This document shows, piece after piece, positions 4,618 through 32,776 of a stretch of 34,738 nucleotides of DNA; the first letter of the stretch is position 1; every line of letters begins with the position of its first letter. Position numbers and translations under genes: made by a program. The stretch is from the NCBI GenBank assembly GCA_017615125.1, contig JAGAAS010000019.1, positions 1 through 34,738 on the forward strand. The letters run 5' to 3'. A model generated the notes under the pieces. It searched no databases. It was not told the DNA's origin and worked only from the letters and a program-made list of their open reading frames with translations. The stretch comes from Bacteroidaceae bacterium. GTDB lineage: Bacteria; Bacteroidota; Bacteroidia; Bacteroidales; Bacteroidaceae.

Positions 4618-4783
4618 CTAAAAATTATTCTTTCTCCAAAAATTTTTTTCTTTCTACATACGGTGAGATACCTTGAGCATATTTCTATGCTCTTCCTCTG
4701 TCGCGACTCGGGATAACAGAAGCAAGCTTCGTTCTCCTCTCGCTGCTCCATCGGCTCTTCATACGGCGAGATTCCTTCTCGAT
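4618..4783 (-). repeat. 21-bp repeat locus R2 with 61-base hairpin block
   Basis: Read on the minus strand, 21-base units lie at 4763-4783 (ending AATCTCGCCGT) and 4742-4762 (ATGAAGAGCCGATGGAGCAG plus one base). A 61-base block follows at 4681-4741, then units at 4660-4680, 4639-4659 and 4618-4638. The block holds GAGTCGCGACAGAGG and a perfect hairpin GAGCATA-GAAA-TATGCTC. It is the same composite element as R4 at 16407-16574; the two differ mainly by a two-base gap in the hairpin loop. It fills the gap between the mutarotase-like and fucP-type genes. Confidence 0.85.
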
Positions 4784-4833
4784 AAATTTTGGCCCCTTCT
4801 CTTCCGTAGGGGATTCAACACGGTGAGGAAGGG

Positions 4834-5211
4834 CTAATAAAGGTGGAACATGCGCTCCATCATCTGCCACTTCTCCGACGACGATGCACCGGGCTTGCTG
4901 GCCTGGAAGAGCGCGACGTAGTCCTCCCACTCCTGCTGGCGCGGAAGGGTGGCAAGCTGGGCCATAGCGCTGTCCCAGTCGAAGTCGAGGGGAGTCTCCA
5001 CAATCATGAAGAGCCTGTTGCCGAGGATGTAGATCTCCATCTCGAGGATGCCCACCTGCCGGATGCCGGCAAGGATCTCGGGCCAGGCCTCCTCGCGGCT
5101 GTGAGCCCTGCGGTAGCGCGCGATGAGCTCGGGGTTGTCCTTCAGGTCCAGCGTCTGGCAGAAACGGCGGACAGGAACGTGATATTCTTGAACTTGGTAT
5201 CCTTTTTCCAT
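4834..5211 (-). CDS. L-rhamnose/L-fucose mutarotase-like protein (RhaM/YiiL family)
   Basis: A 125-residue cytoplasmic protein of the dimeric alpha/beta-barrel mutarotase family (formerly DUF718). Visible family features are the N-terminal RRFCQTLDLKDNPELIARY segment, EAWPEILAGIRQVGI, IYILGNRLFMIVE (60-72) and the C-terminal MERMFHLY. Such enzymes interconvert the alpha and beta anomers of imported deoxy-sugars. The start at 5211 is chosen over the in-frame ATG at 5265 because a good promoter (5235-5266) lies between them, and the family begins near this point. The downstream FucP-type transporter gene suggests import and anomerisation of one sugar. Which sugar is not shown, and no isomerase or kinase is present. 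Confidence 0.85.
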   Translation of the reverse strand: MEKGYQVQEYHVPVRRFCQTLDLKDNPELIARYRRAHSREEAWPEILAGIRQVGILEMEIYILGNRLFMIVETPLDFDWDSAMAQLATLPRQQEWEDYVALFQASKPGASSSEKWQMMERMFHLY

Positions 5212-5234
5212 ATTCGTTGAAGAAAATTCGCAGC

Positions 5235-5266
5235 CAAAAATAGAAAAAAGTTTTCTTATCGCCAAA
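5235..5266 (-). promoter_or_regulatory. Bacteroidota-type promoter for the mutarotase-fucP unit
   Basis: On the minus strand a TTTG -33 element (5263-5266) is followed after 20 bases by TATTTTTG (5235-5242), matching TTTG-N~20-TAnnTTTG. It would start transcription about 17 bases before the mutarotase start at 5211. Confidence 0.75.
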
Positions 5267-5377
5267 AAAATCTCGTTCTTCTATCCATCCCCCACCAAAA
5301 ATGAAGGATTTTTTCATAAAAAGTAAAATTCATAACTTGCAGATTAACAAATATATTGGTGACGATAAGAAGGCTTG

Positions 5378-5440
5378 GTGGAAAACTTTTTAAAAAATGT
5401 GGAAAACTTTTTGTGGATTTTTGTGGGGAATTGTGGGGAA
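5378..5440 (+). promoter_or_regulatory. Probable MraZ operator: five GTGG boxes
   Basis: GTGG occurs at 5378, 5399, 5413, 5423 and 5433, giving offsets of 21, 14, 10 and 10 bases. The last two are GTGGGGAATT repeats, and the first two are identical GTGGAAAACTTTTT words. MraZ of other bacteria is known to bind three tandem TGGGN boxes spaced one helical turn apart upstream of its own gene. The 10-base spaced trio at 5413-5440 fits that layout and overlaps the promoter. Confidence 0.75.
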
Positions 5441-5453
5441 TTATGTAACTTTG
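5420..5453 (+). promoter_or_regulatory. dcw cluster promoter
   Basis: TTTG (5420-5423) and TAACTTTG (5446-5453) are separated by 22 bases and fit the Bacteroidota promoter consensus. The predicted transcript would begin about 20 bases before the mraZ ATG. The -33 element and spacer overlap the GTGG boxes, so MraZ binding should block it. Confidence 0.75.
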
Positions 5454-5480
5454 AGGCGATTTTTCAAAAAGTATCTACAA

Positions 5481-5939
5481 ATGGCTCGATTCATAGGAAA
5501 TATTGACGCGAAGATGGACGAGAAAGGGAGGGTCTTTTTCCCTGCCGTCTTCCGCAGAATCATCCAGAAGGAGGGGGAGGAGGCGCTGATGGTGCGCAAG
5601 GACGTGCACCAGAACTGCCTGGTCCTCTACCCCAAGAGCGTGTGGAACGCGCAGCTCGACGAGATGCGCAGCGTGCTGAGCCGCTGGAACTCGAAAGACC
5701 AGATGGTCTTCCGCCAGTTTGTGGCTGGCGTTGACGAGCTGCCTGTTGACGGCAACGGGCGCATCCTTATCCCGAAGCGCCTGCAGCAGCTGGTGAACCT
5801 GCAGTCGGCAGTACGCTTCATCGGGATGGACGACACCATAGAGCTCTGGTCGAAGGAGGAGGCAGACGCCCTGCTGGAGAATCCCGCAGACCTAGGAGAG
5901 AATATAGAACGGCTGCTCGGCGGAGGCAACGCGCTTTAA
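5481..5939 (+). CDS. mraZ: MraZ, transcriptional regulator of the dcw cluster
   Basis: A 152-residue DNA-binding protein with two SpoVT/AbrB-like halves. Each has the family signature: D13-EKGR-17 followed by VFFP, and D90-GNGR-94 followed by ILIP. MraZ forms ring oligomers and represses the dcw promoter by binding tandem boxes upstream of its own gene. The matching boxes are present at 5378-5440. The ATG at 5481 is preferred to the longer open frame beginning at 5397, because that frame starts upstream of the promoter and its extra residues are not in the family. It is the first gene of the cell division cluster, with rsmH starting 21 bases after its stop. Confidence 0.97.
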   Translation: MARFIGNIDAKMDEKGRVFFPAVFRRIIQKEGEEALMVRKDVHQNCLVLYPKSVWNAQLDEMRSVLSRWNSKDQMVFRQFVAGVDELPVDGNGRILIPKRLQQLVNLQSAVRFIGMDDTIELWSKEEADALLENPADLGENIERLLGGGNAL

Positions 5940-5960
5940 CCGCCTGAGGAGAGAGAAAAT

Positions 5961-6872
5961 GTGAAGAGAATGGCAGAAACCTATCATATTCCCGTGATGC
6001 TGAAAGAGAGCGTGGAGGCAATGAACATTGTCCCCGGGGGAATCTACGTGGACGTCACGTTCGGGGGCGGAGGCCATTCGCGTGAGATACTGAGCCGCAT
6101 GGACGAGACGGCCCATCTGTATGCCTTCGACCAGGATGCAGACGCGGAGGCCAACATCATCGACGACAAGCGGTTCACCTTCGTGCGCAGCAATTTCCGC
6201 TACCTGTGGAACTTCATGCGCTACTACGACGTGCCGCAGGTGGATGCCGTCCTCGCCGACCTGGGCGTGTCGTCGCATCACTTCGATACCGAGGAGCGGG
6301 GCTTCTCGTTCCGTTTCGATACGGTGCTCGACATGCGGATGAACACCCGCGAAGGGAAGACAGCCGTCGACGTGCTCAACGACTACGACGAGGAGAAGCT
6401 CGCCCAGATCTTCTACTTCTACGGGGAGCTGAAGAACGGGCGGCAGCTGGCGCAGGCGATAGCCAGAGCGCGGCGCACCAAGCAGATACGTACTACGGGC
6501 GACCTGGCGGAAGTCACGGGACGCTTCTTCGAGCGCGACAGGGAGAAGAAGGAGATGGCGAAGATGTACCAAGCTCTCCGCATCGAGGTGAACGCCGAGA
6601 TGGAAGCCCTGAAGGAGATGCTCAATGCAGCCACAGAGCTGCTGAAGCCGGGAGGCAGGCTGGTGGTGCTGACGTACCATTCTATCGAAGACAGACTGGT
6701 GAAGAATATGATGAAGGCCGGGGATATGACGGGAGAGGTGCAGCAGGATATGTTCGGAAATGTATCCTCGCCCTATCGCATCGTGGAGAAGGTGGTGACT
6801 GCCACCGATGAGGAACAGCAGAGGAACCCCCGCTCGAGGAGTGCCAAACTACGCGTAGCAGAGAAAAGATGA
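5961..6872 (+). CDS. rsmH: RsmH, 16S rRNA (cytosine-1402-N4)-methyltransferase
   Basis: A 303-residue S-adenosylmethionine-dependent enzyme that N4-methylates C1402 in the 16S rRNA decoding centre. The N-terminal TYHIPVMLKE motif, the SAM loop DVTFGGGGHS (31-40), ADLGVSSHHFD, RGFSFR, LDMRMN and the late TYHSIEDRLVK are all family signatures. The GTG at 5961 follows GAGGAGAG; the ATG at 5970 (MAETYHIP) is an equally plausible start. The stop overlaps the next start in ATGA, which indicates translational coupling with the ftsL-like gene. It is in its usual second place in the dcw cluster. Confidence 0.97.
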   Translation: MKRMAETYHIPVMLKESVEAMNIVPGGIYVDVTFGGGGHSREILSRMDETAHLYAFDQDADAEANIIDDKRFTFVRSNFRYLWNFMRYYDVPQVDAVLADLGVSSHHFDTEERGFSFRFDTVLDMRMNTREGKTAVDVLNDYDEEKLAQIFYFYGELKNGRQLAQAIARARRTKQIRTTGDLAEVTGRFFERDREKKEMAKMYQALRIEVNAEMEALKEMLNAATELLKPGGRLVVLTYHSIEDRLVKNMMKAGDMTGEVQQDMFGNVSSPYRIVEKVVTATDEEQQRNPRSRSAKLRVAEKR

Positions 6873-7222
6873 GCAGTAAGAAAGAAACGAATCAGAAACA
6901 GTCGAAGAAGAGGCTGCGCATCTCCGACATCATCAACGGAGATGTCCTGACGCAGCCGTTTGTGCGTCGCCAGATGGGGCTGATAGTTTTGATCATGGTG
7001 TTGATCGTACTGTACGAAGGCAACCGGTATGCCTGCCAGAAGGACATCGTTGCCATCCAGCGCGCCCGGAAGGAGTTGCTGGACCTGCGCAACGAGTCGG
7101 TGGCGCTGAACAACGAACTGATGCAGAAGAGCCGGCAGTCGAATATCGAGCAGCGTGTGGCAAACACATCGAGTAATCTGAAGCCGTCGACGGCGGCTCC
7201 TGTTGTAATTGAGAGGAAATGA
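6869..7222 (+). CDS. ftsL: FtsL-like division protein
   Basis: A 117-residue single-pass inner membrane protein. It has a basic cytoplasmic N-terminus (1-34), a transmembrane helix (about 36-50, GLIVLIMVLIVLYEG) and a periplasmic coiled coil (about 58-95) rich in heptad Leu, Arg and Glu. Size, topology and position between rsmH and ftsI identify it as the Bacteroidota FtsL, which joins the divisome and activates FtsW/FtsI. Sequence similarity to proteobacterial FtsL is low, as usual for this family. It overlaps rsmH and ftsI by four bases each. Confidence 0.85.
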   Translation: MSSKKETNQKQSKKRLRISDIINGDVLTQPFVRRQMGLIVLIMVLIVLYEGNRYACQKDIVAIQRARKELLDLRNESVALNNELMQKSRQSNIEQRVANTSSNLKPSTAAPVVIERK

Positions 7223-9615
7223 GGGCAGACATCGAATCAATGACGAAGAAGTTCACCTCGGTGATTATCATCGTGGTGCTGCTGGCTATTCTCATTATGA
7301 TAAGAGCCGCTCTTCTCATGACGTTCGACAGAGGCAAGTGGGCTGTGGTAGCCAAGCGCTTCGAGGTAGACAGCGTGAAGGTGCTGCCTCAGCGCGGAAG
7401 CATCCTCAGTGATGACGGACATGTGATGGTGAGCAGTACGCCCGAGTACCAGCTCGTGTTCAAATACAAGGGCTCGTCGCCCACGCTCGAGCAGCAGCGC
7501 GTGCGCAACGCTATGGTGCGCGAGAACATGAAAATCTACTGCGACAGCCTGCACGAGATACTCCCCCTGCAGAGCTCGGATGAGTTCCGACGCCTGCTGA
7601 CGGAAGCCATCTCGCGCGGGGAGAGGAACGTGAAGAGCAACGCCAAGACGGGCTATTACACCAATCTGTATGTCAAGGGCAACCAGCGCCTTCCGTATAA
7701 TAAGTATAAGGAGGTGAAGGAGTTCATCGCCAGGCGCGAGGAGCAGTATAACATATATGCCACCTTCGGCGGCAACGGCAAGGACGGTAAGGTGCTCAGG
7801 CAGATGTGGATAGACAGCCTCGACGTCATCTGCGCCGATCTGCACAAGGCAATCCCGAAAGCCAGCGAGAAGGAGCTGCGCGACTCGATCATGAAGGGCA
7901 TCAATAGCCCGAAGAAGCGACAGAAGCTTTACGGCTCGTCGCTGAACCGCGAGCAGATAGAACAGATCAGGAAGGTTCCCGTCATACGGCTGGGAAGGAA
8001 ACGGTCGGGGTTCACCTACACGAAGAATATCGTCAAGAGCGGCATCGAGCTGGACGAGCTGATGGTGCGGAAGAATGTCTATAACAACACCGCCATCCGT
8101 ACCCTCGGGCAATGGAGCAACGCCGGGCTGAACAACGCCAAGCCCCGAAACGGAATAGAGCTGGCCTACGACAGCCTGTTGCGAGGAACACCGGGTGTGG
8201 CTCATCGTCGGAAAGTGCTCAACGAGTATGCCGAATTCGTGGATGTGGCTCCCGTGAACGGCTGCGACGTTGTCACAACGCTGAACCTCGTCATTCAGGA
8301 CATCGCCGAGCAAGCCCTGATGCGGAAGATGGAAGAAGCCGACGCCAACGCAGGAACGGTGATCGTGATGGAGACGAAGACAGGAGAGATAAAGGCTCTC
8401 GTGAATGTGGCCCGCACGTCGGGGCGCGGCTGGCTGGTTGACGACAACTACGCCCTCAGGCGCTGTATCGAGCCAGGCTCAGTTTTCAAGCCGGCATCGC
8501 TGCTTGTGGCACTCGACGACAAGGAGGTAACGGTGGAAGACTCGGTGGACACGGGCGTCGGAACGAAGTTCTTCTATGGCGCGAGGATGAAGGACGACAT
8601 CGTGGAACCTCATGTGAAGAAGATCCCGCAGATACTGCAGTTCTCATCCAACCTCGGAACGATGCTTGTCGTCGATGAGCACTACGTGAAAAAGGGGAAA
8701 TCGCTCGACTTCCTGAAGCATCTGCAGCGCCTGCATCTGACTGATAACTTCCAGGTGCTCCCCGAGGAGAGAGACTCCAAGCTCCGCACGGAGGCAGAGG
8801 TGAAAGCCTCCAACGTCAACACCCTCTGGATGGCTATTGGGTACGGCTCGCAGATTGCTCCGATTAACCTGGCGGCGTTTTACAATGCTATCGCCAACGG
8901 AGGGAAGATGATGAAGCCGTTCCTCATCTCCGAAATAAGCCGCGACGGGAAGGTCATCAGCAAGAACGAGCCGGAAGTGGTGGCAACGATTGCAAGCGAG
9001 AAAGCCATACAGGATGTGACGCAGGGACTGATTGCCGTCGTGAACGGAGAGCGCGGAACGGGGCGTCAGGCGAAGTCGGAAGAGTTCATTGTTGCTGGAA
9101 AGACAGGCACGGCGCAAATCAACGAAGCGACAGGAAGGGTGGGCTACTGGGTTAACTTCTGCGGATTCTTCCCTGCCGACAAGCCGGAATACACCTGTGT
9201 GGTCTGCATCAATAAAAAGACTGCTGCAGGAGGCGGAGGAGGCAACTCGGCGCCTGTCTTCGGCGAGATAGCGCGGAGAGTGATGGCCTATCAGAAGACA
9301 AAGGAAGTGATGGAGCTGAAGGACTCGACAGCCGTCAACACACCGCTCCTGAAGCAGGGAAACGCGCAGGCAGCCGAGAAGGTGCTCGAAGGCATGCGAA
9401 TGGGAAAGGCCGACACGCTCATCGTTCCCGATGTGGAAATATCGGCAGGGACGGTTCCCAACGTCCTTGATATGGGCGCCAAGGATGCTATATATAATAT
9501 GGAAAGAAGTGGTGTCCACGCCCGATTGAACGGGACAGGCCGCGTATATCGACAGAGTATTCAGCCGGGAGCTTCGGTTCAGAAGGGAACGACAGTAGAC
9601 CTGTATTTGAAATAA
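7219..9615 (+). CDS. ftsI: FtsI/PBP3-like septal transpeptidase with C-terminal PASTA domain
   Basis: A 798-residue class B penicillin-binding protein. It has a short N-terminal cytoplasmic part, one transmembrane anchor (about 15-33), a dimerisation domain, the transpeptidase domain and a PASTA domain (about 731-798). The three active-site motifs are S421-VF-K424 (acylated serine), S476-S-N478 and K628-TGT-631. It cross-links septal peptidoglycan in complex with FtsW. A PASTA domain on FtsI is common in Bacteroidota but absent from enterobacterial PBP3. The start overlaps ftsL by four bases. Length is longer than E. coli FtsI because of an enlarged region before the transpeptidase domain plus the PASTA tail. 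Confidence 0.96.
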   Translation: MRADIESMTKKFTSVIIIVVLLAILIMIRAALLMTFDRGKWAVVAKRFEVDSVKVLPQRGSILSDDGHVMVSSTPEYQLVFKYKGSSPTLEQQRVRNAMVRENMKIYCDSLHEILPLQSSDEFRRLLTEAISRGERNVKSNAKTGYYTNLYVKGNQRLPYNKYKEVKEFIARREEQYNIYATFGGNGKDGKVLRQMWIDSLDVICADLHKAIPKASEKELRDSIMKGINSPKKRQKLYGSSLNREQIEQIRKVPVIRLGRKRSGFTYTKNIVKSGIELDELMVRKNVYNNTAIRTLGQWSNAGLNNAKPRNGIELAYDSLLRGTPGVAHRRKVLNEYAEFVDVAPVNGCDVVTTLNLVIQDIAEQALMRKMEEADANAGTVIVMETKTGEIKALVNVARTSGRGWLVDDNYALRRCIEPGSVFKPASLLVALDDKEVTVEDSVDTGVGTKFFYGARMKDDIVEPHVKKIPQILQFSSNLGTMLVVDEHYVKKGKSLDFLKHLQRLHLTDNFQVLPEERDSKLRTEAEVKASNVNTLWMAIGYGSQIAPINLAAFYNAIANGGKMMKPFLISEISRDGKVISKNEPEVVATIASEKAIQDVTQGLIAVVNGERGTGRQAKSEEFIVAGKTGTAQINEATGRVGYWVNFCGFFPADKPEYTCVVCINKKTAAGGGGGNSAPVFGEIARRVMAYQKTKEVMELKDSTAVNTPLLKQGNAQAAEKVLEGMRMGKADTLIVPDVEISAGTVPNVLDMGAKDAIYNMERSGVHARLNGTGRVYRQSIQPGASVQKGTTVDLYLK

Positions 9616-9635
9616 CGTAATCCGAAATAGAGAGA

Positions 9636-11096
9636 ATGAAACTATCCGAAATACTGAACGATGCGAAGGTGCTCGAGCTGATAGGCTCAGCCGAGCGCGA
9701 GGTATGCGACGTTGTCATCGATTCCCGCAAGGTGGTGGAGGGCAGCCTCTTCGTCGCCATCCCCGGAACGCAGGTCGACGGGCATACCTTTATTCCGATG
9801 GCTATTGAAAAGGGAGCAAAGACAATCGTTTGCAGCAAGCTGCCCGAGGTGTTGAACGAGGAAGTCACCTATGTGCATGTGGACGACTGCGAAGAGGCGG
9901 TAGGCCACATCGCAACAGCCTTTAATCATCATCCTACCGAGCGGCTCACGCTGGTAGGCGTGACGGGAACGAACGGGAAAACCACCATCGCTACCTTATT
10001 ATATAAGATGTTCCGCGCATTCGGATACAAGGTAGGACTTGTCTCCACCGTCTGCAACTACATCGACGACGAAGCTGTTCCTGCCGATCATACCACCCCC
10101 GATGCTGTGACGCTCAACAGACTTCTCGGGCGTATGGCTGATGCAGGATGCACGTATGCATTCATGGAATGCAGCTCTCACGCCATCGACCAGAAGCGGA
10201 TAAGCGGGCTCCGTTTCGCGGGAGGAATCTTCACCAACCTGACGCGAGACCATATGGACTATCATAAAACCGTCGAGAACTACTTAAGAGCCAAGAAGGC
10301 CTTCTTCGACGGGCTCCCTGCGGAGGCCTTTATGATTACCAACCTCGACGACAAAAATGGGCTCGTGATGGCTCAGAATACCCGTGCGCACGTCTATACC
10401 TACTCGCAGCAGCGCATGTGCGATTTCAAGGGACGTATTCTCGAGCACGACTTCGACGGAATGCTGTTGGACATCAACAACACGGAGGTGTTCGTGCAGT
10501 TCGTGGGCAAGTTCAACGCGAGCAACCTGCTGGCTGTCTACGGAGCTGCCTGCGCACTGGGAAGGGAGCCGATGGAAGTGCTTACGGTGCTGAGCACGCT
10601 GCGCCCGGTTTCCGGAAGGTTCGAGGCTATCCGCTCGCCCAAGGGCTTCTCGGCTATCGTGGACTATGCGCATACACCCGACGCCATCAACAACGTGCTG
10701 AAGGCCATCAACGAAGTGGTTGACGGGAAGGCAGAAGTGATAACCGTCGTCGGAGCAGGAGGTAACCGCGACAAGGGAAAGCGCCCGCTGATGGCTCAGG
10801 AGGCCGTGAAGGGCAGCACTCGCGTCATCATCACAAGTGACAACCCCCGCTTCGAGGAGCCGCAGGACATTATCAACGACATGCTTGCAGGGCTCACCGA
10901 CGAAGAGCGGAAGAAAGTCCTGACAATCGTCGACCGTCGTGAGGCAATCCGCACGGCGTGCCTGATAGCCCATCCCGGCGACGTAATTCTCGTTGCCGGA
11001 AAGGGACACGAGGACTACCAGGAGGTGAAAGGCGTGAAGCATCATTTCGACGACCGGGAGGTACTCCGCGAAGAATTCGGGCTCACGAAAGGCTGA
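9636..11096 (+). CDS. murE: MurE, UDP-MurNAc-tripeptide synthetase (meso-diaminopimelate type)
   Basis: A 486-residue cytoplasmic ATP-dependent ligase that adds the third residue to UDP-MurNAc-L-Ala-D-Glu. The ATP loop GTNGKTT lies at 111-117. ECSSHAID follows in the central domain, and DNPR at 402-405 is the known signature for meso-diaminopimelate rather than lysine. [12 protein letters not shown] and [15 protein letters not shown] are Mur ligase C-terminal motifs. It starts 20 bases after ftsI. Its 3' end runs into the repeat array R3, and the last codons may already be affected by repeat sequence. Confidence 0.97.
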
Positions 11097-11102
11097 ATCC
11101 GT

Positions 11103-11228
11103 ATGGAGAAAGAATCTCGCCGTATGAAGAAAGAAGCCGGCCGTATGAAGAAAGAAAAAATTTTTTTGGAGAAGGAATAAATTTTTTTCAAGAAAGAAAA
11201 AATCAACAAGAAAGGAATATAGAAGATG
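11103..11228 (+). repeat. 21-bp repeat array R3, six units ending in the mraY start codon
   Basis: Six contiguous 21-base units start at 11103, 11124, 11145, 11166, 11187 and 11208. Units 1-3 begin ATGGAGAAAGAA, ATGAAGAAAGAA and ATGAAGAAAGAA. The first two end TCTCGCCGT and GCCGGCCGT, and later ones have A/T-rich tails (AAATTTTT). The sixth unit ends exactly with the mraY ATG (11226-11228), so the array forms the whole murE-mraY gap and supplies the ribosome-binding region. A- and T-tracts recur at two helical turns, which should bend the DNA. Confidence 0.9.
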
Positions 11229-12506: not shown

Positions 12507-12509
12507 AGG

Positions 12510-13847: not shown

Positions 13848-13885
13848 GAAAAAGAGACAAAGGAAAAACAATAAAGGACAGACAG

Positions 13886-15256: not shown

Positions 15257-15278
15257 TCATTCAATCAGCATCATAACT

Positions 15279-16406: not shown

Positions 16407-16574
16407 ATGAAGAACCGATGGAGCAGCGAAGCCAGAGCCAAACTTGTTTGAGCTATGCTGAGTCGCGACAGAGGAAGAGCATAGAAAAATATGCTCAAAG
16501 AATCTCGCCGTATGAAGAAAGAAGCCGGCGAGATGTAGAAAGAAAAAATAATTATCAACAAAGAATAAAATGGG
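16407..16574 (+). repeat. 21-bp repeat locus R4 with 63-base hairpin block, upstream of murC
   Basis: Eight 21-base registers fill the murG-murC gap. The first unit at 16407 is ATGAAGAACCGATGGAGCAG plus one base. A 63-base block (16428-16490) follows, then units at 16491 (ATGCTCAAAGAA + TCTCGCCGT), 16512 (ATGAAGAAAGAA + GCCGGCGAG), 16533 and 16554. The last contains the murC ATG at 16570. The block holds GAGTCGCGACAGAGG and the hairpin GAGCATA-N6-TATGCTC. A larger fold pairs TTTGAGC (16447-16453) with GCTCAAA (16493-16499). It is the same element as R2 at 4618-4783, in the opposite orientation. Confidence 0.88.
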
Positions 16575-21424: not shown

Positions 21425-21442
21425 TGTTACGCAGACATCATT

Positions 21443-21466: not shown

Positions 21467-21474
21467 TCATAAAA

Positions 21475-22737: not shown

Positions 22738-22767
22738 GATTCCCGAAGGTTTGTTTGATTCATGATG

Positions 22768-22800
22768 CAGGGCGAATTCTTTTCCCTCCCTGTTTTGTTT
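22768..22800 (+). terminator. Possible weak terminator after recO
   Basis: CAGGG (22768-22772) can pair with CCCTG (22888-92 in the pattern's right arm, that is 22788-22792), followed by TTTTGTTTT. The stem is only five pairs with a 15-base loop, so confidence is low. Confidence 0.3.
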
Positions 22801-22857
22801 TCTATCGCAGATAAGGAAGTGGAAGGGCGCATAGATATACATTTTCGCCCTATAGTC

Positions 22858-22888
22858 TTGTTTCTTCAAAGTGCATTTAGTATTTTTG
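22858..22888 (+). promoter_or_regulatory. hut operon promoter
   Basis: TTG (22858-22860) and TATTTTTG (22881-22888) are spaced by 20 bases, matching the Bacteroidota consensus. The transcript would start about 30 bases before the ftcD ATG. Just upstream an inverted repeat AGGGCG (22824-22829) / CGCCCT (22846-22851) could be an operator. Confidence 0.7.
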
Positions 22889-22924
22889 CAGAAGAAAACA
22901 GAACAATGCCTTTTTGATTATACC

Positions 22925-24649
22925 ATGAAAAGAATCATCGAATGTGTGCCTAACTTCAGCGAAGGGCGAAACCAACAAGTTATCAACCAGATAGTCTCTG
23001 TCATCGCAGCTACTGACGTAGGAGGCGAACGGGTAAAGGTCTTGAATGTCGACCCGGGCGAAGCCACAAATCGAACCGTCGTTACTTTCACCGGCAGTCC
23101 CGAAGCCGTTTGCGAAGCGGCTTTTCAGGGAGTGAAAGCTGCTGGCGAGCTTATTGATATGCGCAAGCATCACGGAGCGCATCCTCGCTCGGGAGCTACC
23201 GACGTGCTTCCTCTTATTCCTATTTCCAATATTAGCCTCGAAGAGTGCGCCGAGCTGGCTCGGACGCTGGCAAAGCGAATCTCCGATGAACTTGGCATTG
23301 CCTGCTACTGCTACGAGGCTGCTGCTTTTAAGCCTGAGCGAAAGAATCTGGCTGTTTGCCGTGCAGGAGAATACGAGGCTCTTCCTGAGAAGATGACCGA
23401 TCCAGCCCGCCGTCCCGATTTCGGTCCTTCCGCCTATACGGAGCGGATTGCTCTTAGCGGCGCTACAAACGTAGGCGCCAGGGATTTTCTTATCGCTGTC
23501 AACTTCAATCTCAACACCACATCCGTCCGGCGCGCTATGGCTGTTGCTTTCGATGTACGCGAAAAGGGACGGAAGGCACGCGAGGGAGGCTCTCTTACGG
23601 GTAAGGTCTTGAAAGACGACAAAGGCGAGGACATCTGGATTCCGGGTACGTTGAAAGGATGCAAGGCAATAGGCTGGTATATCGACGAATACGGCATAGC
23701 GCAAGTTTCCATGAACATCACCGACATCCGTCAGACTCCCCTTCATGTGGCTTTCGATGAAGTCTGCCGTGCTGCCGCAGCTCGCGGGCTCCGCGTTACG
23801 GGAACCGAGATAGTGGGGCTTGTTCCGAAGCAGGTTCTCATCGATGCTGGCAGGTATTTCCTTGCCAAGCAGCAGCGATCCTTAGGAATCAGCGAGGAGC
23901 AAATCATTCATATTGCCATTAAGTCAATGGGCCTTGACGACTTGAAGCCCTTCGATCCCCGCAAAAAGGTAATAGAATATCTGATGGAGGATGAAAAAGA
24001 ACAAGCAGCACGCGAGAAATTGATTCGGATGACGTTGAAAGACTTCGCTATTGAGACAGCTTCCGAATCTCCTGCTCCAGGAGGAGGCTCTATTTCTGCA
24101 TTCATGGGCGCTCTTGCTGCTGCCCTAGGGACGATGGTTGCCAATCTCTCGGCTCATAAGCGCGGCTGGGACAGCCTGTGGAAAACCTATTCCGATGTAG
24201 CTGAAGAGGGGCAAAAGATAATGAAAGAGCTGATTTCCCTTGTTGATGAAGACACGGCAGCTTTCAATAGGATTATGGAGGTATTCTCTATGCCTAAGAA
24301 TACCGACGAAGAGAAAGCCGCGCGTGCTGCAGCTTTGGAGTCGGCAACTCTTTATGCCACAGAAGTTCCTCTCCGTACCATCAAGGCGGCTTCAAAAGCC
24401 CTTCCCGTTCTTTCTCTTATGGCGGAGAAAGGCAACCCCGCTTCTGCATCCGATGCAGGAGTCGGTGCTCTTGCTGCAGTTGCAGCTATACGCGGAGCAG
24501 ACTTGAATGTGCGAATCAATGCCGCTGGGTTGAAGAACCGGGAAACGGCAGAGAGGCTTGTTTCCGAAGCCCGCACCCTTGTCCGTGAGGCTATGGAAAA
24601 AGAACAAGAGATTCTTTCTTTGGTAAATAAAAATATCGACAAAGAATAA
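22925..24649 (+). CDS. ftcD: Bifunctional glutamate formimidoyltransferase / formimidoyl-THF cyclodeaminase
   Basis: A 574-residue cytoplasmic fusion. The N-terminal formimidoyltransferase part (about 1-330, starting IIECVPNFSEGRN, with HHGAHPRSGATDVLPLIP) moves the formimino group from formiminoglutamate to tetrahydrofolate. The C-terminal cyclodeaminase (about 370-570, with SPAPGGGSISAFMGALAAALG) releases ammonia to give methenyl-THF. This is the last step of the histidine pathway completed by the three genes downstream. The ATG at 22925 is chosen over upstream non-ATG starts because the promoter box at 22881 would otherwise lie inside the gene. The last codons (ATC GAC AAA GAA TAA) match the repeat unit of R5. 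Confidence 0.95.
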   Translation: MKRIIECVPNFSEGRNQQVINQIVSVIAATDVGGERVKVLNVDPGEATNRTVVTFTGSPEAVCEAAFQGVKAAGELIDMRKHHGAHPRSGATDVLPLIPISNISLEECAELARTLAKRISDELGIACYCYEAAAFKPERKNLAVCRAGEYEALPEKMTDPARRPDFGPSAYTERIALSGATNVGARDFLIAVNFNLNTTSVRRAMAVAFDVREKGRKAREGGSLTGKVLKDDKGEDIWIPGTLKGCKAIGWYIDEYGIAQVSMNITDIRQTPLHVAFDEVCRAAAARGLRVTGTEIVGLVPKQVLIDAGRYFLAKQQRSLGISEEQIIHIAIKSMGLDDLKPFDPRKKVIEYLMEDEKEQAAREKLIRMTLKDFAIETASESPAPGGGSISAFMGALAAALGTMVANLSAHKRGWDSLWKTYSDVAEEGQKIMKELISLVDEDTAAFNRIMEVFSMPKNTDEEKAARAAALESATLYATEVPLRTIKAASKALPVLSLMAEKGNPASASDAGVGALAAVAAIRGADLNVRINAAGLKNRETAERLVSEARTLVREAMEKEQEILSLVNKNIDKE

Positions 24650-24697
24650 AAATTTTTCCTTTGTCGAAAAAGAATTATTGACAAAGAAAAAGACATA
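24635..24697 (+). repeat. 21-bp repeat locus R5, variant units between ftcD and hutU
   Basis: Three 21-base blocks start at 24635, 24656 and 24677. The first and third contain GACAAAGAA in the place of GAAGAAAGAA. The first overlaps the last codons of ftcD. GACAAAG (24638-24644) and CTTTGTC (24659-24665) can form a hairpin with an A/T loop. The unit resembles the last unit of R4 (ATCAACAAAGAATAAAA). The hutU ATG follows 14 bases later. Confidence 0.65.
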
Positions 24698-24710
24698 CTG
24701 CTACGATACC

Positions 24711-26738: not shown

Positions 26739-26771
26739 CAAAAGGTTACTGCGAAACAAGATTAACTCAGT

Positions 26772-26876
26772 AGAAATTATTCTTTCTTCAAAAAAAAATT
26801 ATTCTTTCTACATCTCGCGAGATTCTTTCTTCATACGGCGAGATTCCTTCTCGAAAATAATTTTTCCCTTCTTGAA
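26772..26876 (-). repeat. 21-bp repeat array R6, five units between hutU and hutH
   Basis: Read on the minus strand, contiguous 21-base units lie at 26856-26876, 26835-26855, 26814-26834, 26793-26813 and 26772-26792. The unit at 26814 reads ATGAAGAAAGAA + TCTCGCGAG, and that at 26835 ends AATCTCGCCGT. The array faces against the hut genes, unlike R3 and R4, which run with their genes. It fills most of the 160-base hutU-hutH gap and ends 22 bases before the hutH ATG. Confidence 0.9.
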
Positions 26877-26898
26877 AAAATAAAAAGTATTGACAACG

Positions 26899-28386
26899 AT
26901 GGCACATATCATTTCACCTACCCAAATAACCATAGAGCGAATAAAGGAAATCCTTGACAACCACGAAAAACTCACCTTGGGCATCGAGGCTGTGGAAGCC
27001 ATACAGAAATGCCGCAGGTACCTCGACAGCAAGATGCAAAATATCGACCGTCCTGTGTATGGCGTCACAACGGGCTTCGGCTCTCTCTACAACATAACGA
27101 TTCCCGAAGAGGACCTGTCGCAGCTGCAGTACAACCTGGTTGTTTCGCACGCCTGCGGTATGGGCGAGGTTGTGAGCCCCGACATTGCCCGCATCATGCT
27201 GCTGCTGAAGGTGCAGTCGCTCTCGTACGGGCACTCGGGCTCGCAGCTTATCACGGTGCAGCGCTTGGTTGACATGTTCAACAACGACATCATCCCCGTC
27301 ATCTACCGGCAAGGTTCGCTGGGAGCCTCGGGCGACTTGGCTCCACTCGCCCACATGTCGCTGCCGCTGATAGGCTTGGGCGAGGTGTGGTACAAGGGAC
27401 AGCGTCGTCCGAGTGCTGAGGTGTGGGCAGAGAAGGGCTGGGAGCCCATCCGCCTGCAGTCGAAGGAGGGGCTGGCGCTGCTCAACGGCACCCAGTTCAT
27501 GAGCGCCCATGCGGTGTGGTCCATCATCCAGAGTGAACGTCTTTCTGCCTGGGCAGACATCATAGGGGCTCTCTCCCTCGATGCCTACGACGGGCGCATC
27601 GAGCCCTTCTATCCGCAGACGCACCGCCTGCGCCGGCAGAAGGGACAGCTCATCACCGCTTCGCGCTTCCTGGAGCTGCTCGAGGGGAGCGAGCTCATCA
27701 ACCGCCCGAAAGAGCATATCCAGGACCCCTATTCCTTCCGCTGCATCCCGCAGGTGCACGGCGCCGTGAAAGACAACATCGCCTACGTGCGCCAAGTGAT
27801 TGAGAATGAAATCAGCAGCGCTACCGACAACCCGAACATCTTCCCCGACGAGGATATGATTATCTCTGCCGGAAACTTCCACGGGGAGCCTATCGCCATT
27901 CCTATGGATACGCTGGCGATAGCGATGTCGGAGCTGGCAAACATCTCGGAACGCCGCACCTTCAGGCTTATCTCAGGGCAGCGTGCGCTTCCGAAGTTCC
28001 TTGTTGCCAACCCGGGGCTGAACAGCGGCTTTATGATACCGCAATATACGGCAGCTTCCATCGTCAGCCAGAACAAAGGCTACTGCTGGCCTGCCTCGTG
28101 CGACTCCATTCCTTCGTCGCAGGGACAGGAGGATCACGTCAGCATGGGGGCAAACTCCGCTACCAAGCTGGTTCATATCATCAACAACGTGGAAACGGTG
28201 CTCGGCATCGAGCTCTTCAATGCAGCCCAAGCCCTTGACTTCCGTCGTCCCGCACGCACCTCGGAACGGCTCGAGCAAATCGTCAGCGACTATCGCAAGC
28301 AGGTGCCGTTCATCGAGAACGACGTCTACATGCACCCGCTTATCAAGGCTTCGAAGCTGTTCCTCCGCAACGAACAGTATCTGTAA
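26899..28386 (+). CDS. hutH: Histidine ammonia-lyase
   Basis: A 495-residue cytoplasmic tetrameric enzyme that deaminates L-histidine to urocanate, the first step of the pathway. The triad A143-S144-G145, inside GSLGASGDLAPLAHMSLPL, cyclises to the MIO electrophile. YGVTTGFG, QDPYSFRCIPQVHGA, the NPNIFPDEDMIISAGNFHGE block and SCDSIPSSQGQEDHVSM are the other family signatures. The ATG at 26899 is used; a TTG at 26890 is less likely. Only 11 bases separate its stop from hutI. Confidence 0.97.
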   Translation: MAHIISPTQITIERIKEILDNHEKLTLGIEAVEAIQKCRRYLDSKMQNIDRPVYGVTTGFGSLYNITIPEEDLSQLQYNLVVSHACGMGEVVSPDIARIMLLLKVQSLSYGHSGSQLITVQRLVDMFNNDIIPVIYRQGSLGASGDLAPLAHMSLPLIGLGEVWYKGQRRPSAEVWAEKGWEPIRLQSKEGLALLNGTQFMSAHAVWSIIQSERLSAWADIIGALSLDAYDGRIEPFYPQTHRLRRQKGQLITASRFLELLEGSELINRPKEHIQDPYSFRCIPQVHGAVKDNIAYVRQVIENEISSATDNPNIFPDEDMIISAGNFHGEPIAIPMDTLAIAMSELANISERRTFRLISGQRALPKFLVANPGLNSGFMIPQYTAASIVSQNKGYCWPASCDSIPSSQGQEDHVSMGANSATKLVHIINNVETVLGIELFNAAQALDFRRPARTSERLEQIVSDYRKQVPFIENDVYMHPLIKASKLFLRNEQYL

Positions 28387-28397
28387 TCTTTCCCGCG

Positions 28398-29639
28398 ATG
28401 AAACGCACCCTTATCACTCATATTTCCCAGCTCACGGGAATTGTTCCTCAAGGAGTCAGGCTCAAAAGAGGCTCCGAGATGGATGTCGTTGAAAGCCTTC
28501 CCGACGCCTGGCTCCTCATCGAGGGGGAGCGCATTGCCGATTTCGGCCCTTCCTCTTCGCTGTCCACGCAGGAGGACGCCGTTGATATTCAGGTTATTGA
28601 CGCTAAGGGGGGAATGGTAATGCCCTCGTTCTGCGACTCCCACACGCATATCGTCTGGGCAGGGCAGCGCGACGCGGAGTTCGTCGACAAGATCAACGGG
28701 CTTACCTATGAGCAGATAGCAGCTCGCGGAGGAGGCATCTTGAATTCGTCGGACCTGTTGCATAAGACGTCCGAGGATGAGCTCTACCGCCAGAGCAAAG
28801 TCCGTCTGGACGAGATGATGGCAAAGGGCACGGGGGCTGTGGAAATCAAAAGCGGCTACGGGCTTAACCTCGACGACGAGCTGAAGATGCTTCGCGTCAT
28901 CCGTCGCCTGCGCGAGGAGAGTCCTGCGCTCATCCGCGCCACCTTCCTCGGGGCGCATGCCGTAGGACGGGGGTACGGGCACGAGGCATACGTCGATGCC
29001 GTCTGCAAGGAGATGATCCCAGCTGTGGCGGAAAGAGGTTTAGCCGAATTCATCGATGTTTTTTGTGACGAGGGCTTCTTTACCGTCAGCGACACGGAGC
29101 GCATCCTCGCAGCAGGAGAGCAAGTGGGGCTCATTCCGAAGATTCATGCCAACGAACTTGCTGTGAGCGGGGGCGTTCAGGTGGGAGTGCGTCACGGGGC
29201 CCTCTCTCTCGATCACCTCGAACGTACGGGCGATGCCGAGCTGGAGGCATTGCGCGGCAGCGACACGATGCCTACCATGCTGCCGGGCTCGTCGTTCTTC
29301 CTCGGGCTTCCCTACGGGCAGGCGCGCCGTTTCATTGAGGCTGGGCTCCCTCTAGCGCTTGCCAGCGACTACAATCCGGGCTCTTCGCCTTCGGGCGACA
29401 TGCGTTTCGTGATGGCCTTGGGGTGTATCCAGATGAAGCTCTCGGCAGAGCGCGCCTTCAATGCCTGTACGCTCAATGCTGCCTACGCAATGGGCGTGTC
29501 GGACGAGGTGGGCTCCATCACCCGCGGCAAGCGTGCCAACCTCATCGTCACCAAGCCCGGCTTCACGCTCACGCTCTTGCCCTACCTCCATCAGACACCT
29601 TTCATTGCCCATCATATCCTGCAGGGAAGGGTGATCTAA
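28398..29639 (+). CDS. hutI: Imidazolonepropionase
   Basis: A 413-residue amidohydrolase that opens 4-imidazolone-5-propionate to N-formimino-L-glutamate. The metal site is visible: H82-T-H84 in SHTHIVWAGQRDAEF, H250 in KIHANEL, H273 in LDHLER and D324 in ASDYNPGS. KSGYGLNLDDELKML and GAHAVGRGY bind substrate in the family. It is the last gene of the hut operon, 24 bases before a strong terminator. With HutH, HutU and FtcD it completes histidine to glutamate, with the formimino group passed to folate. Confidence 0.96.
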   Translation: MKRTLITHISQLTGIVPQGVRLKRGSEMDVVESLPDAWLLIEGERIADFGPSSSLSTQEDAVDIQVIDAKGGMVMPSFCDSHTHIVWAGQRDAEFVDKINGLTYEQIAARGGGILNSSDLLHKTSEDELYRQSKVRLDEMMAKGTGAVEIKSGYGLNLDDELKMLRVIRRLREESPALIRATFLGAHAVGRGYGHEAYVDAVCKEMIPAVAERGLAEFIDVFCDEGFFTVSDTERILAAGEQVGLIPKIHANELAVSGGVQVGVRHGALSLDHLERTGDAELEALRGSDTMPTMLPGSSFFLGLPYGQARRFIEAGLPLALASDYNPGSSPSGDMRFVMALGCIQMKLSAERAFNACTLNAAYAMGVSDEVGSITRGKRANLIVTKPGFTLTLLPYLHQTPFIAHHILQGRVI

Positions 29640-29662
29640 GCTTTGGGCAGTAAAGCATACGA

Positions 29663-29699
29663 AAAACGGGGATGCGAACGAAAGTCGCTTCCCCGTTTT
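29663..29699. terminator. Bidirectional terminator between hutI and the BspA-like gene
   Basis: AAAACGGGGA (29663-29672) pairs with TCCCCGTTTT (29690-29699). After one T-T mismatch, GCGA (29674-29677) pairs with TCGC (29685-29688) around a seven-base loop. The A/T arms give U-runs on both strands, so it should end the hut transcript from the left and the surface-protein transcript from the right. Confidence 0.88.
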
Positions 29700-29742
29700 C
29701 TGTTGTGGAGGGTTTGGTCGAATGTGCCTTTTTTGTCCCGTG

Positions 29743-32166
29743 TTATTTTTGGCCGAGGATGATGCTCACGAGGGCTGTGACGTCGGTGACGTTTACCTGC
29801 GTGTCGTCGTTGACGTCGGCGGCGGCGATCGACGGCGTGTTGCCGAGGATGATGCTCACGAGCATGGTGACGTCGGTGACGTTGACGGCACCGTCGCCGT
29901 TCACGTCGCCCTGCTTCAGCTTGAGGGTGAAGTATCCGGGCGTGCCGGGAGCGTCGATGCGGGCATAGGTGTTGTCGAGGTAATTGTAGTCGTATTGCGT
30001 GCCGTTGCCTCCCACGATGCTGGAGCAGCCGAGGAACATCCAGCTGGAGCTCTGTACGTTTGACATATCCCATTCGCCTGCCACATAGATTTTGTAGAGG
30101 CTGGGATTGTAATAGAACATGTAGCTTATGTCAGTCACGCCGTGCAAGTCGAAGCTCGTCAGGTCAAGTTCTTCCACGGCCGTGCATTCATTGAACATAT
30201 AACTCATGTCGGTCACTTTACGAGTGTCGAAATGGCTCACGTCGATGGCCGTCAGCGCCTCACATTTGGAGAACATGCTCTGCATCGTCGTCACCTCGCT
30301 GGTGTTGAGGTACTCGAGGCCCTCGATGAAGGTGAGGTTCGTCATGTCCTCGAACCAGGCATACGTGGTGGTGGGGCGGGCATAGATAAACGACGGGTCG
30401 AACACCACCTTGGTGATGTCGCTGGCATAATAGACCTGCCAGTAGGGCTTCGTGTTGCCTGAGTTGAGGTAGTAGAGGGTACCCCAGCCGTTGCCTATCA
30501 TCTTGCCGTCGCAGCGGAACATGAGGGTGTTATTGTTGTACGCGATGTAGGGCAATGCGCTGAAGTAGCCCGTGTTGCCGTCAACACCGTCGACAACGGC
30601 ATAGTCCTTGCCTACCCGTTCAATATTGTACTTTGTTCCAGCCATACCCACAAGGTTGTCGCAACCGTAGAACATATATTCGTCGTTTGTTACCGCTTCC
30701 GTAGTGAAGACGCTGTTGACGTAGATGGTCTTCAGGGCAGAGCAGTCTTCAAACATACTGTTCATGTCCGTCACCTTGCCGGTGTCCCAGTAGCTGATGT
30801 CGAGCGAGGTGAGGCTGCGGCAGTCGTAGAACATGTGACTCATGCTGGTGACATTTGCAGTGTTCCAGTTGGGGAAGTGGATGTCTGCCAGACGGGTGCA
30901 GTTGAAGAACATGTAGCTCGTGTCAGTGATCTTGCCGGTGTACCATCCGTTGAGATTAAGCGAGGTGAGGCTGCTGCAGCCGCAGAACATGTCGGCCACA
31001 TTGGTGAGATTGGCTGTATACCAGCCGTTTATTTTGCCCACGCTCGTGAGGCTGCTGCAATATTGGAACATAAAGCTCATGTTGGTGACGTTATAGACGT
31101 CGAAGTGGCTCAGGTCAAGCGATGTGAGGCTGCTGCATTCGCTGAACATATAGAACATGCTAGTGACGTTCCTGGTGTTGAGGTACTGCAGGTCCTTGAT
31201 AGTCGACAGGTTCACCATTCCGTAGAACCAGCGGGCCGTCGTCGTAGGCCGTGCATCGATAAACGAGGGGTCAAACACCACGCCCCTAATGGTGGAGCTT
31301 TTAGTGTACCATCCGGGGGAGTTCGTGCCCGTGTTGAGCGTGTAAGGGGCTTCTGTGTGCAAAGCCTTGTAGCCGTCGTAGTAGAACGTCAGGGTGTCGT
31401 TCTTTAATATAGCGTATGTGGCGCGCTTCGAGATGTCGGTGAGGTAGCCGGGAGAGGAACTTGTCGGACCTTGGTCGATGACGGCATAGGTCTTAGTAAC
31501 ATTACCTAAATTACTCTGATCGTAAGTCGTTCCCTTTCCGCCTACGAGTTTTTTGCAAGAAAGGAACATGTGAGTTGAACTCGTCACGTTGGTCATGTCC
31601 CAGCCTGAGCCCACATAGATGGTCTTCAGATTTCCGCAAGAATTAAACATCTGGAAGGTGCTTTCCAAGTTGGCGGTATTGAAGCTGCTTAGGTCGAGGC
31701 TTGTCAACGAACGGCAGTTGTCGAACATATATCGCATGGTCGTTACATTGCTGGTTTTGAAGCCGGACAGGTCAAGATGGGTAAGACTCCAGCAACCGTC
31801 GAACATCAACGCCATATCTTTCACGTAGTAAGTGTTGAGATACTGGATTCCGTTGATGGAAACCAGGTTTTTCATAGATCTGAACCAGTTATGCGTGCTC
31901 TTAGGGAGATAGTTGCCAAACGACGAGTTGAACACTACGTAGTAAACAGATGATCTGAACGTCTGGTCGTACCCGAGGGGACTCTCGGCAGTTTCATCGA
32001 TAAGGTACACCTCACCCTGTCGCGACGAGCTGCTGAAGTCGTAGTAGAAGGTGAGGGTGCTGTCGTTGGCGGTGAATACGGCATAGGCTTTCTGTGCCGA
32101 GAGCTTGGCTGCGCCCAGCAGGATGAGTGCCGTAAGCAAAAAGAGCTTTTGGTAAAGTTTCTTCAT
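29743..32166 (-). CDS. BspA-like leucine-rich-repeat surface protein with C-terminal dockerin-like module
   Basis: An 807-residue exported protein with a signal peptide (about 1-24, ending AAKLSAQ). The body is built of three modules (about 26-245, 249-540 and 541-748). Each opens with a Y-A-(I/V/Y)...NDTLTFYYDG-like strand and a VVFDPSF segment, followed by DUF285/BspA repeats of the type MFxxCxSLTSLDLSxFxTxxVTxM. BspA-type repeats in oral and gut bacteria and protists bind host matrix or other cells. The last 55 residues form two dockerin-like halves, GDVNGDGAVNVTDVTMLVSI and ADVNDDTQVNVTDVTALVSI, with the Ca-binding D-x-N-x-D pattern. A Type IX sorting domain and lipobox are not seen, so how it is held at the surface is open. 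Confidence 0.9.
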   Translation of the reverse strand: MKKLYQKLFLLTALILLGAAKLSAQKAYAVFTANDSTLTFYYDFSSSSRQGEVYLIDETAESPLGYDQTFRSSVYYVVFNSSFGNYLPKSTHNWFRSMKNLVSINGIQYLNTYYVKDMALMFDGCWSLTHLDLSGFKTSNVTTMRYMFDNCRSLTSLDLSSFNTANLESTFQMFNSCGNLKTIYVGSGWDMTNVTSSTHMFLSCKKLVGGKGTTYDQSNLGNVTKTYAVIDQGPTSSSPGYLTDISKRATYAILKNDTLTFYYDGYKALHTEAPYTLNTGTNSPGWYTKSSTIRGVVFDPSFIDARPTTTARWFYGMVNLSTIKDLQYLNTRNVTSMFYMFSECSSLTSLDLSHFDVYNVTNMSFMFQYCSSLTSVGKINGWYTANLTNVADMFCGCSSLTSLNLNGWYTGKITDTSYMFFNCTRLADIHFPNWNTANVTSMSHMFYDCRSLTSLDISYWDTGKVTDMNSMFEDCSALKTIYVNSVFTTEAVTNDEYMFYGCDNLVGMAGTKYNIERVGKDYAVVDGVDGNTGYFSALPYIAYNNNTLMFRCDGKMIGNGWGTLYYLNSGNTKPYWQVYYASDITKVVFDPSFIYARPTTTYAWFEDMTNLTFIEGLEYLNTSEVTTMQSMFSKCEALTAIDVSHFDTRKVTDMSYMFNECTAVEELDLTSFDLHGVTDISYMFYYNPSLYKIYVAGEWDMSNVQSSSWMFLGCSSIVGGNGTQYDYNYLDNTYARIDAPGTPGYFTLKLKQGDVNGDGAVNVTDVTMLVSIILGNTPSIAAADVNDDTQVNVTDVTALVSIILGQK

Positions 32167-32255
32167 TGTTGAATGTTAGTTTGTTAGAGTTTCTGTCTGT
32201 TTCGTTTTGTGAGGGAGGCGGCGCTTCCGCGCGCGAGCTTCTTACAAATACAGTA

Positions 32256-32287
32256 CAAAGGTACGCATTCCTTTTTGACTATGCAAA
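32256..32287 (-). promoter_or_regulatory. Promoter of the BspA-like gene
   Basis: On the minus strand TTTG (32284-32287) and TACCTTTG (32256-32263) are spaced by 20 bases, a full match to the Bacteroidota consensus. The predicted 5' leader is about 80 bases. Confidence 0.75.
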
Positions 32288-32418
32288 TTTTTTGGGCTTT
32301 TTTTATGCAATTCTCTCTTTTTTTCTCATCTCGCTGAGGTTTATTTAGTTGGGGCAGCGAGGGAGAAAATCTCCCGCAGGCGAAGACGTTGATGGCGCCG
32401 GAAAGGCGGGGCGAAAAG

Positions 32419-32627
32419 CGTTACACGTTACACGATAAAAATTTTAGGGGGTATAGTAACGAAATGGCCTTTTGGGGAAGAGATAGGGTGAGAAGGAGAG
32501 ATTACAATTTATAAGTAATAGAATTTAATTTTATATTATAATTCATTATAATATAAAATTAGCATTTACTCTCCCTATCCCTCGCGTTACTATACCCCCT
32601 TAAAAAAATTACGTGTAACGCGTAACG
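32419..32627. repeat. 209-bp fold-back element, MITE-like
   Basis: Two 43-base ends, 32419-32461 and 32585-32627, are inverted copies. They share CGTTAC, then CGTTACACG, and a perfect inner word GGGGGTATAGTAACG, with a divergent A/T segment between. Inside lie a second inverted pair (GAGATAGGG near 32480 against CCCTATCCC near 32575) and a perfect 15-bp hairpin, 32527-32541 with 32546-32560, of A and T only. The whole can fold into one long imperfect hairpin. It has no coding capacity. No clear target-site duplication is visible, so mobility is an inference. Confidence 0.75.
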
Positions 32628-32692
32628 GTTACGTCAAAGCACCCGTTTCTCTCTCGGGATGTACACTCATTTTCCTGCTTTTTCTGCGGATT

Positions 32693-32776
32693 TTGGAGAA
32701 GGGAAAAATTGTTTTTCTTTCTTCATCTCGCCGTATGAAGAAGGGAAAAATCAGCGAAGAGGGAGAGGTTTTTCAG
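32693..32776. repeat. 21-bp repeat locus R7 (mixed orientation)
   Basis: Four 21-base blocks start at 32693, 32714, 32735 and 32756. The second holds CTTTCTTCAT followed by CTCGCCGT, and the third begins ATGAAGAAGGGAAAA. The ATGAAGAAAG unit is therefore met in both orientations across CTCGCCGT, as in R1. This copy is not close to a start codon; it lies in the non-coding stretch after the ampG-like gene. Confidence 0.7.

Follow-up and report, generated by a model that had tools for sequence, protein, structure and literature searches.

The window analysed here, 34,738 nucleotides in length, is contig C81 of the 3.03-Mb draft genome G000 (107 contigs) and carries a cell-wall and division cluster in which Pfam matches fit murE, mraY, murG and murC, the remaining genes of the cluster presumably being those that gene order implies. 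The first-pass annotation of this DNA had described seven intergenic arrays of 21-base blocks, and all seven were present. The first (358..441, assigned to no single strand) has cores centred at 385 (+), 406 (-) and 427 (-), with steps of 21 and 21 bp. The second (4618..4783, minus strand) is positioned before an MFS gene at 3310-4599 (-) and has cores at 4633 and 4653 (step 20), followed 103 bp further on, over a longer module, by a variant core at 4756 and then a core at 4777 (step 21). The third (11103..11228, plus strand) occupies the murE-mraY spacer, with cores at 11109, 11130, 11151, 11172 and 11193 and every step 21 bp, and the fourth (16407..16574, plus strand) occupies the murG-murC spacer, where a variant core at 16413 and the longer module precede cores at 16518, 16539 and 16560 (steps 105, 21 and 21). 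Variant cores of the TCGACAAAGAA type make up the fifth (24635..24697, no single strand), centred at 24641 (+), 24662 (-) and 24683 (+) with steps of 21 and 21 bp. The sixth (26772..26876, minus strand) has cores at 26785, 26807, 26828, 26849 and 26870 (steps 22, 21, 21 and 21), and the seventh (32693..32776, no single strand) has cores at 32699 (+), 32720 (-) and 32741 (+), again at steps of 21 and 21 bp.

The intergenic siting claimed for these arrays applied to six of them, which lie wholly outside called genes, but not to the fifth, which runs into the final codons of the gene upstream (22886-24649) and may also reach the beginning of the following one (from 24678, start uncertain). Similarly, the blocks are indeed 21-bp units, but orientation-free ones, and the arrays at 4618 and 16407 are not simple arrays, since they include the longer module. 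This module spans 16408..16512 (+) in the fourth array, where it has a GAGCATAG...ATGCTC inverted repeat and the next core at 105 bp, and approximately 4659..4761 (-) in the second, where the next core is at 103 bp. Across the sample, seven copies were seen in G000, followed by a core after 105 bp (5 x 21) in four, after 103 bp in two and by none within reach in the remaining one; the single copy in the congener G005 had its next core at 96 bp. Near the seventh array, positions 32927-33079 hold tandem repeats of period 8-24 of the CCTTAAAGT and TTGGCCTC types, outside the 21-bp family, and a gene at 29743-32166 (-) encodes DUF285/leucine-rich repeats together with a dockerin domain, a combination that suggests a cellulosome-like surface system.

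The 21-base register reported for the arrays was borne out, with 15 of 17 neighbouring-core steps in the window exactly 21 bp and two slips, of 20 bp (4633-4653) and 22 bp (26785-26807), in addition to one distance of 105 bp (5 x 21) and one of 103 bp across the longer module. With up to 2 mismatches, ATGAAGAAAGAA matched 24 times in the window, compared to 3.18 expected and a maximum of 7 among 100 shuffles. The strict 11-bp core occurred in 22 copies, forming 12 pairs 21 bp apart and 2 pairs at 20 or 22 bp; 200 dinucleotide shuffles of the window gave a mean of 0.6 strict cores (maximum 3) and zero pairs at 21 bp. When core matches with up to 2 mismatches were counted in the seven arrays, 23 were on the best grid phase and 16 off it, the latter being mostly loose A-rich matches and in some cases slipped cores.

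The repeat unit consists of an 11-bp core, T[GC][AGT]AGAA[AG]G[AG]A, and a 10-bp linker. The main cores of the carrier species are TGAAGAAAGAA and TCGAGAAGGAA, with TGTAGAAAGAA as a minor core, and the core is non-palindromic in these species. In 1.05 Mb of G000 and G005, the linker was 10 bp long in 294 of 305 neighbouring strict-core pairs (searched range 4-18 bp), and strict-core pairs numbered 294 at 21 bp against 10 at 20 or 22 bp. Linkers are drawn from a few recurring 10-bp types that are reused at many loci. Those made only of A and T were 10 bp long in 122 of 132 cases (strict cores, same 1.05 Mb), while the A-to-T boundary shifted within them (A5T5 25, A6T4 25, A4T6 22). Centre-to-centre spacing was 21 bp whichever orientation the neighbours had, as loose-core counts at 20, 21 and 22 bp were 18, 190 and 31 for ++ neighbours, 14, 45 and 12 for +- neighbours and 5, 49 and 11 for -+ neighbours; this loose-core PWM scan also gave secondary peaks, for example at 25 bp (++, 53) and 17 bp (+-, 37), which came from partial matches. 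The linkers between +- neighbours were A/T in most cases, and the commonest linker between -+ neighbours was TCTCGCCGTA or its complement (13 of 30). Palindromic linkers such as AAAAATTTTT and TCTCGCGAGA were common, although only some linkers are palindromic. Core spacing is a constant pitch close to a multiple of the helical repeat, 21 bp being two helical turns and also seven codons. That cores lie either way round on one grid had been overlooked in the first-pass annotation, as had the few arrays in frame inside conserved proteins that are described below.

Rarity elsewhere in the genome, or loss of the register in other copies, had been named as what would count against such a family; neither applies, as exact copies of the 12-mer numbered 304 in G000, with 1 for the reversed control. 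The sister species G005 had 165, and each of 17 other congeners had 0-7. When up to 2 mismatches were allowed, the 21-mer TCTCGCCGTATGAAGAAAGAA had 213 copies in G000 and 38 in G005 and, at the same threshold, was absent from 397 other genomes drawn from the family. A lone copy lay in L053 (JAFYZR010000098.1), a Paludibacteraceae draft from buffalo omasum with a GC content of 42% and one exact 12-mer in the genome; by eye, a tRNA-like sequence and an integrase-like ORF adjoin this array, which is either a transfer or part of a misbinned contig. The exact 21-mer was found in zero contigs of the viral collection, and a phage link was dropped on this ground. An assembly artefact is unlikely, as related families occur in G023 and G026, assembled as one contig each (3.3 and 3.7 Mb). 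A test for over-represented 12-mers singled out clade A only and was too weak in 14-80 kb samples even for the second clade described below, so that it does not count against families elsewhere. No described 21- or 22-bp lattice family was found in the open literature searched, and we file the arrays as lineage-specific extragenic repeats for which geometry is the defining feature.

Another clade of the genus, whose mraY is 65-68% identical to that of G000, has a family that differs in sequence but follows the same rule. With up to 2 mismatches, the unit of this second clade, AGCGTTTGATTCTATT, matched 75 times in G016, 69 in G003, 61 in G009, 57 in G017 and 22 in G012, with 0-4 matches in each of the remaining 14 genomes of the genus. 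Across the 21 arrays listed (some of them the same place twice), centre steps were 21 bp in all but 2 of 63, and flips stayed on the grid. The murE-mraY spacer of G009, G016 and G003 is 116 bp made of this different 21-bp unit, so that the same spacer holds 21-bp arrays of differing sequence in the two clades (the other being G000 and G005); there is none in the four other congeners measured, G001, G007, G011 and G012, where the spacer is 11-33 bp (in G008 and G013 it was unmeasurable). This spacer may be a hot spot; alternatively, it may be an old site whose letters have been rewritten. A nearer clade (mraY 73-77% identical) gave little lag-21 signal in 14-60 kb samples, with the exception of G013, where the signal is a 7-bp microsatellite, and because of this the lattice is taken to be dispensable.

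Two other genera have 22-bp counterparts. The palindrome CYWAAGTATWATACTTWRG occurs at 162 places in G026 (control 1; three congeners 0, 0 and 1) and in the listed part its copies are mostly spaced at 22 or 44 bp, and one stretch of this one-contig genome, G026:C1:1443813-1444161, contains at least 16 consecutive 22-bp palindromic units. The G023 family is smaller and less clear, CAAAATAAGTTGWTTTG having 44 strand matches at 35 places with many 22-bp steps, compared to 9 for the reversed control and 4, 6 and 12 strand matches in three congeners. In 840 kb sampled from 13 genomes beyond the genus, 12 belonging to the same family and one to the order, intergenic tandem repeats had periods of 21 bp in 6 cases, 22 bp in 17 and 23 bp in 3, with none at 16-20 or 24-25 bp; 100 kb of E. 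coli K-12, taken as a contrast, yielded 5 tandem loci, a single one with period 21, which are too few to use. Of 25 genomes given a self-lag test, 19 had a signal (top count of at least 5, a threshold set after the table was known), and the top lag was 21-23 in 18 of these 19, although 7-bp microsatellites contribute part of the signal in G013, G015 and probably G035. G001 gave a lag-22 signal. The one exception, G033, had a top lag of 16, and samples from it (e.g. L196:1514-1600) hold a dispersed GTGACAAC / GTTGTCAC family, with additional lags of 21, 42 and 63 bp.

Under our leading explanation, which we favour only tentatively, these are lineage-specific extragenic repeats, and their pitch persists because a protein occupies adjacent cores along a single helical face. 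This sequence-specific DNA-binding protein would sit on the cores as at phased operators or plasmid iterons, so that arrays that fell off pitch would be lost. Recombination would gain, lose, flip and swap whole units between arrays, and the palindromic linkers AAAAATTTTT and TCTCGCGAGA may help this and allow flips in place. The letters of the unit would change along with the protein in each lineage, and arrays would survive where they do least harm, past stop codons and far from starts, and sometimes in frame in protein linkers. One-face binding gains from the 21-22 bp families of other sequence in relatives and from the 21-23 bp peak of tandem-repeat periods; it is argued for most strongly by the shared 21-23 bp pitch of families with unlike sequences and by linkers that conserve length and not sequence. 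As relatives hold a near-identical grid with other letters, the spacing itself may be important. Against binding, the candidate protein is hypothetical, and recombination among on-grid arrays can hold an established register without selection. The non-palindromic cores of the carriers, the dispensability of the lattice in the nearer clade, the microsatellite share of the lag signals, G033 at lag 16 and the secondary peaks of the PWM scan also count against it.

The main rival is a passive minisatellite, neutral or selfish, which is only slightly less likely: the arrays would spread when units are exchanged unequally, when replication switches template at a palindrome, or when other arrays act as donors in gene conversion, and the register would be a by-product of copying on-grid arrays, with binding unneeded. 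The arrays do turn over fast. Between G000 and G005, pairs of orthologous places were formed for 14 of 85 G000 clusters tested against the G005 sample and, with the single-core pairs 58 and 61 left out, 12 places with a G000 array could be compared. By our reading, lattice DNA was present in G005 at 8 of these but rearranged (pairs 3, 4, 41, 44, 46, 55, 56 and 60), the array of pair 56 being wholly inverted relative to G000, and was absent at 4 (pairs 40, 45, 57 and 59). Inside the linker of an oxidoreductase gene, too, the array is in the sense orientation in G000 and inverted in G005, both forms being open and on the grid, with none in 12 other congeners. Such rearrangement, the common palindromic linkers and the patchy presence across congeners all favour a minisatellite. 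By itself, however, it does not account for the convergence of unrelated unit sequences on 21-23 bp, nor for a linker length that is fixed despite a moving A-to-T boundary.

The siting of the arrays bears on a second alternative, an RNA-level element whose transcribed hairpins would end or protect messages at the 3' ends of genes. Within the 1.05 Mb, 151 arrays of 2-8 units were found (68 in G000 and 83 in G005), at a density biased upward because the G000 stretches and most G005 stretches were picked on contigs with listed matches; gene positions were calls of our own script, with a cruder ORF mask for the tandem-repeat, G026-siting and self-lag counts. Not inside any called ORF were 142 of the 151. 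Counted as arrays per spacer longer than 60 bp, so that one spacer may count twice, G000 had 24/60 in ++, 11/27 in +-, 4/27 in -+ and 16/52 in -- spacers, and G005 had 25/85, 8/35, 10/45 and 33/93 respectively. Divergent spacers were array-poor (14 per 72 vs 117 per 352, pooled p = 0.025), significantly so in G000 (p = 0.027) but not in G005 alone (p = 0.28). Arrays in co-directional spacers follow stop codons, leaning to the end of the upstream gene, with only 24 of 98 nearer the next start than the previous stop (p = 4e-7), and 5 of 7 inspected G026 arrays sit between convergent genes. This siting is as hairpins would have it, and in 136 strands from G000 arrays folding was also more stable than in shuffles (mean z -2.03, with 62 strands below -2). 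Core orientation is mixed in 75 of the 151 arrays and single in 76, however, and the single-orientation arrays fold weakly (mean z -1.16 vs -2.57 for mixed); hairpins would have no need of a fixed pitch, and within what looks like one operon the murE-mraY and murG-murC spacers both contain arrays. No known RNA family was found in the window by Rfam at gathering thresholds. Hairpins were rejected as a general rule, half of the arrays being one-oriented and weakly folding even though arrays overall beat shuffles, and this alternative is unlikely. Orientation beside co-directional genes was unbiased (48 with, 40 against, 10 mixed), as is expected of a DNA-level element. A Shine-Dalgarno or leader role, considered for the purine-rich core, was rejected because strand bias is absent and the second-clade core is different.

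Very unlikely, in turn, is a REP/BIME or MITE moved by a transposase, to which the BIME-like copy number, extragenic siting and mosaic orientation would point. The Y1_Tnp profile (PF01797, the only one searched) had zero matches in G000, G005, G003, G009, G016 and G017 and one in G012, in drafts 84-91% complete from which one could be missed, and a listing of 53 clusters inspected by eye had no constant ends or terminal repeats. RAYT mobilisation was rejected because Y1_Tnp was not found in the carriers G000 and G005, drafts 87 and 91% complete.

Nine arrays were inside called ORFs, eight of them in one common frame; the ninth (L173) was judged a mis-called start and excluded from the eight. 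Pfam matches identified the in-frame hosts as the tail of a chromate transporter (two arrays in the same gene), PurL, a polysaccharide deacetylase, the DHODB/Fer4_20 oxidoreductase mentioned above and, in G005, DNA polymerase I, where the array separates the two exonuclease domains, together with a run-on ORF of YidD and TatD, the eighth host being a weak 81-residue ORF (L049). The PurL array is present in G000, in a diverged form in G005, and is lacking in all 12 other congeners with sequence across this position. The purL open frame of G000 (L031:10029-12116, minus strand) has 699 aa, where most congeners matched over the full length have about 1230-1310 aa, and may reflect a broken gene, a frameshift or an assembly error. 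At L174:6920-8041 (-) in G005, the YidD and TatD domains are in one open frame joined through the array, which may mean a fusion or the read-through of two genes. The common cores have one frame that is stop-free in both directions, and because the unit is also seven codons, flips and copy changes keep the frame; the seven codons per unit likewise make in-frame siting in protein linkers possible in both orientations. As the first-pass annotation had noted, the seven codons read MKKESRR in one frame, with interruption by stops. Many intergenic arrays hold stops, such as the TAG in core TGTAGAAAGAA, and translation is therefore not the general reason for the register; it was rejected as the cause, most arrays being outside ORFs, flipped and stop-interrupted. 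The idea that the register is there for the sake of a charged heptad peptide that it encodes is, despite the eight in-frame arrays, scarcely credible, given the 142 of 151 arrays outside called ORFs, the common stops, the absent strand bias and the different second-clade core.

Extending the protein-bound reading further, we consider it conceivable, if rather doubtful, that the arrays belong to a family-wide class of intergenic DNA set by geometry, in which two-turn, orientation-free binding sites would acquire new letters lineage by lineage, following the shifting target of a fast-evolving DNA-binding protein, and forming a chromosome-wide nucleoprotein lattice that would extend proteins in frame when it lands in genes. 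A geometric definition (pitch and core centre) permits this class of repeat to be searched for without knowing its sequence, and would open to test whether proteins use extragenic repeats as scaffolds or the repeats are mere passengers. With 21 bp equal to two turns and seven codons, one element fits between genes and, in either orientation, inside proteins.

Among known systems, a CRISPR array does not describe these loci, as the linkers are of a few recurring 10-bp types at many loci and not unique spacers. REPs are described as 20-40 bp palindromes, many of them GTAG- or CGTC-tagged and some with a cognate RAYT, and REPs and BIMEs resemble the present family in being high-copy, species-specific and extragenic mosaics of both orientations (PMC2817692, PMC3733652). 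They differ from it in that the family here has a 21-bp lattice cell and a non-palindromic core, with RAYT not found in the carriers. By inspection, the GTAG/CGTC tag is absent from the main cores TGAAGAAAGAA and TCGAGAAGGAA, although the minor core TGTAGAAAGAA contains GTAG; a palindromic unit of the REP kind is likewise not in the carrier species, but would be recognised in G026 with its 19-bp palindrome. BrickBuilt of Porphyromonas gingivalis, which shares a Bacteroidales host and an intergenic tandem unit of similar length, is described as a MITE with a leader, a tail and terminal inverted repeats, its 23-nt tandem unit being without spacers and found at 19 places in one strain; 22-nt repeats are likewise mentioned alongside it (PMC4596501). 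The 21-bp family differs in having hundreds of copies and free orientation, and leader, tail and terminal repeats were unseen by eye in 53 clusters. Rickettsia palindromic elements, of about 150 bp and known for their siting in genes, are inserted in frame in protein genes (PMC10969869), as are eight arrays here; the present units are of 21 bp, at 2-8 per array, and only 9 of 151 arrays are in called ORFs. PARCELs are similar in being dyad-symmetric DNA repeats able to encode repeat peptides, but differ in being coding repeats of 25 residues in dedicated ORFs (PMC2996958). Plasmid iterons, for which one example has a 22-bp interval and is interpreted as Rep binding sites, are likewise repeats at about two helical turns (PMC1924603). 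Iterons cluster at one replication origin, whereas the 21-bp arrays are dispersed over the chromosome.
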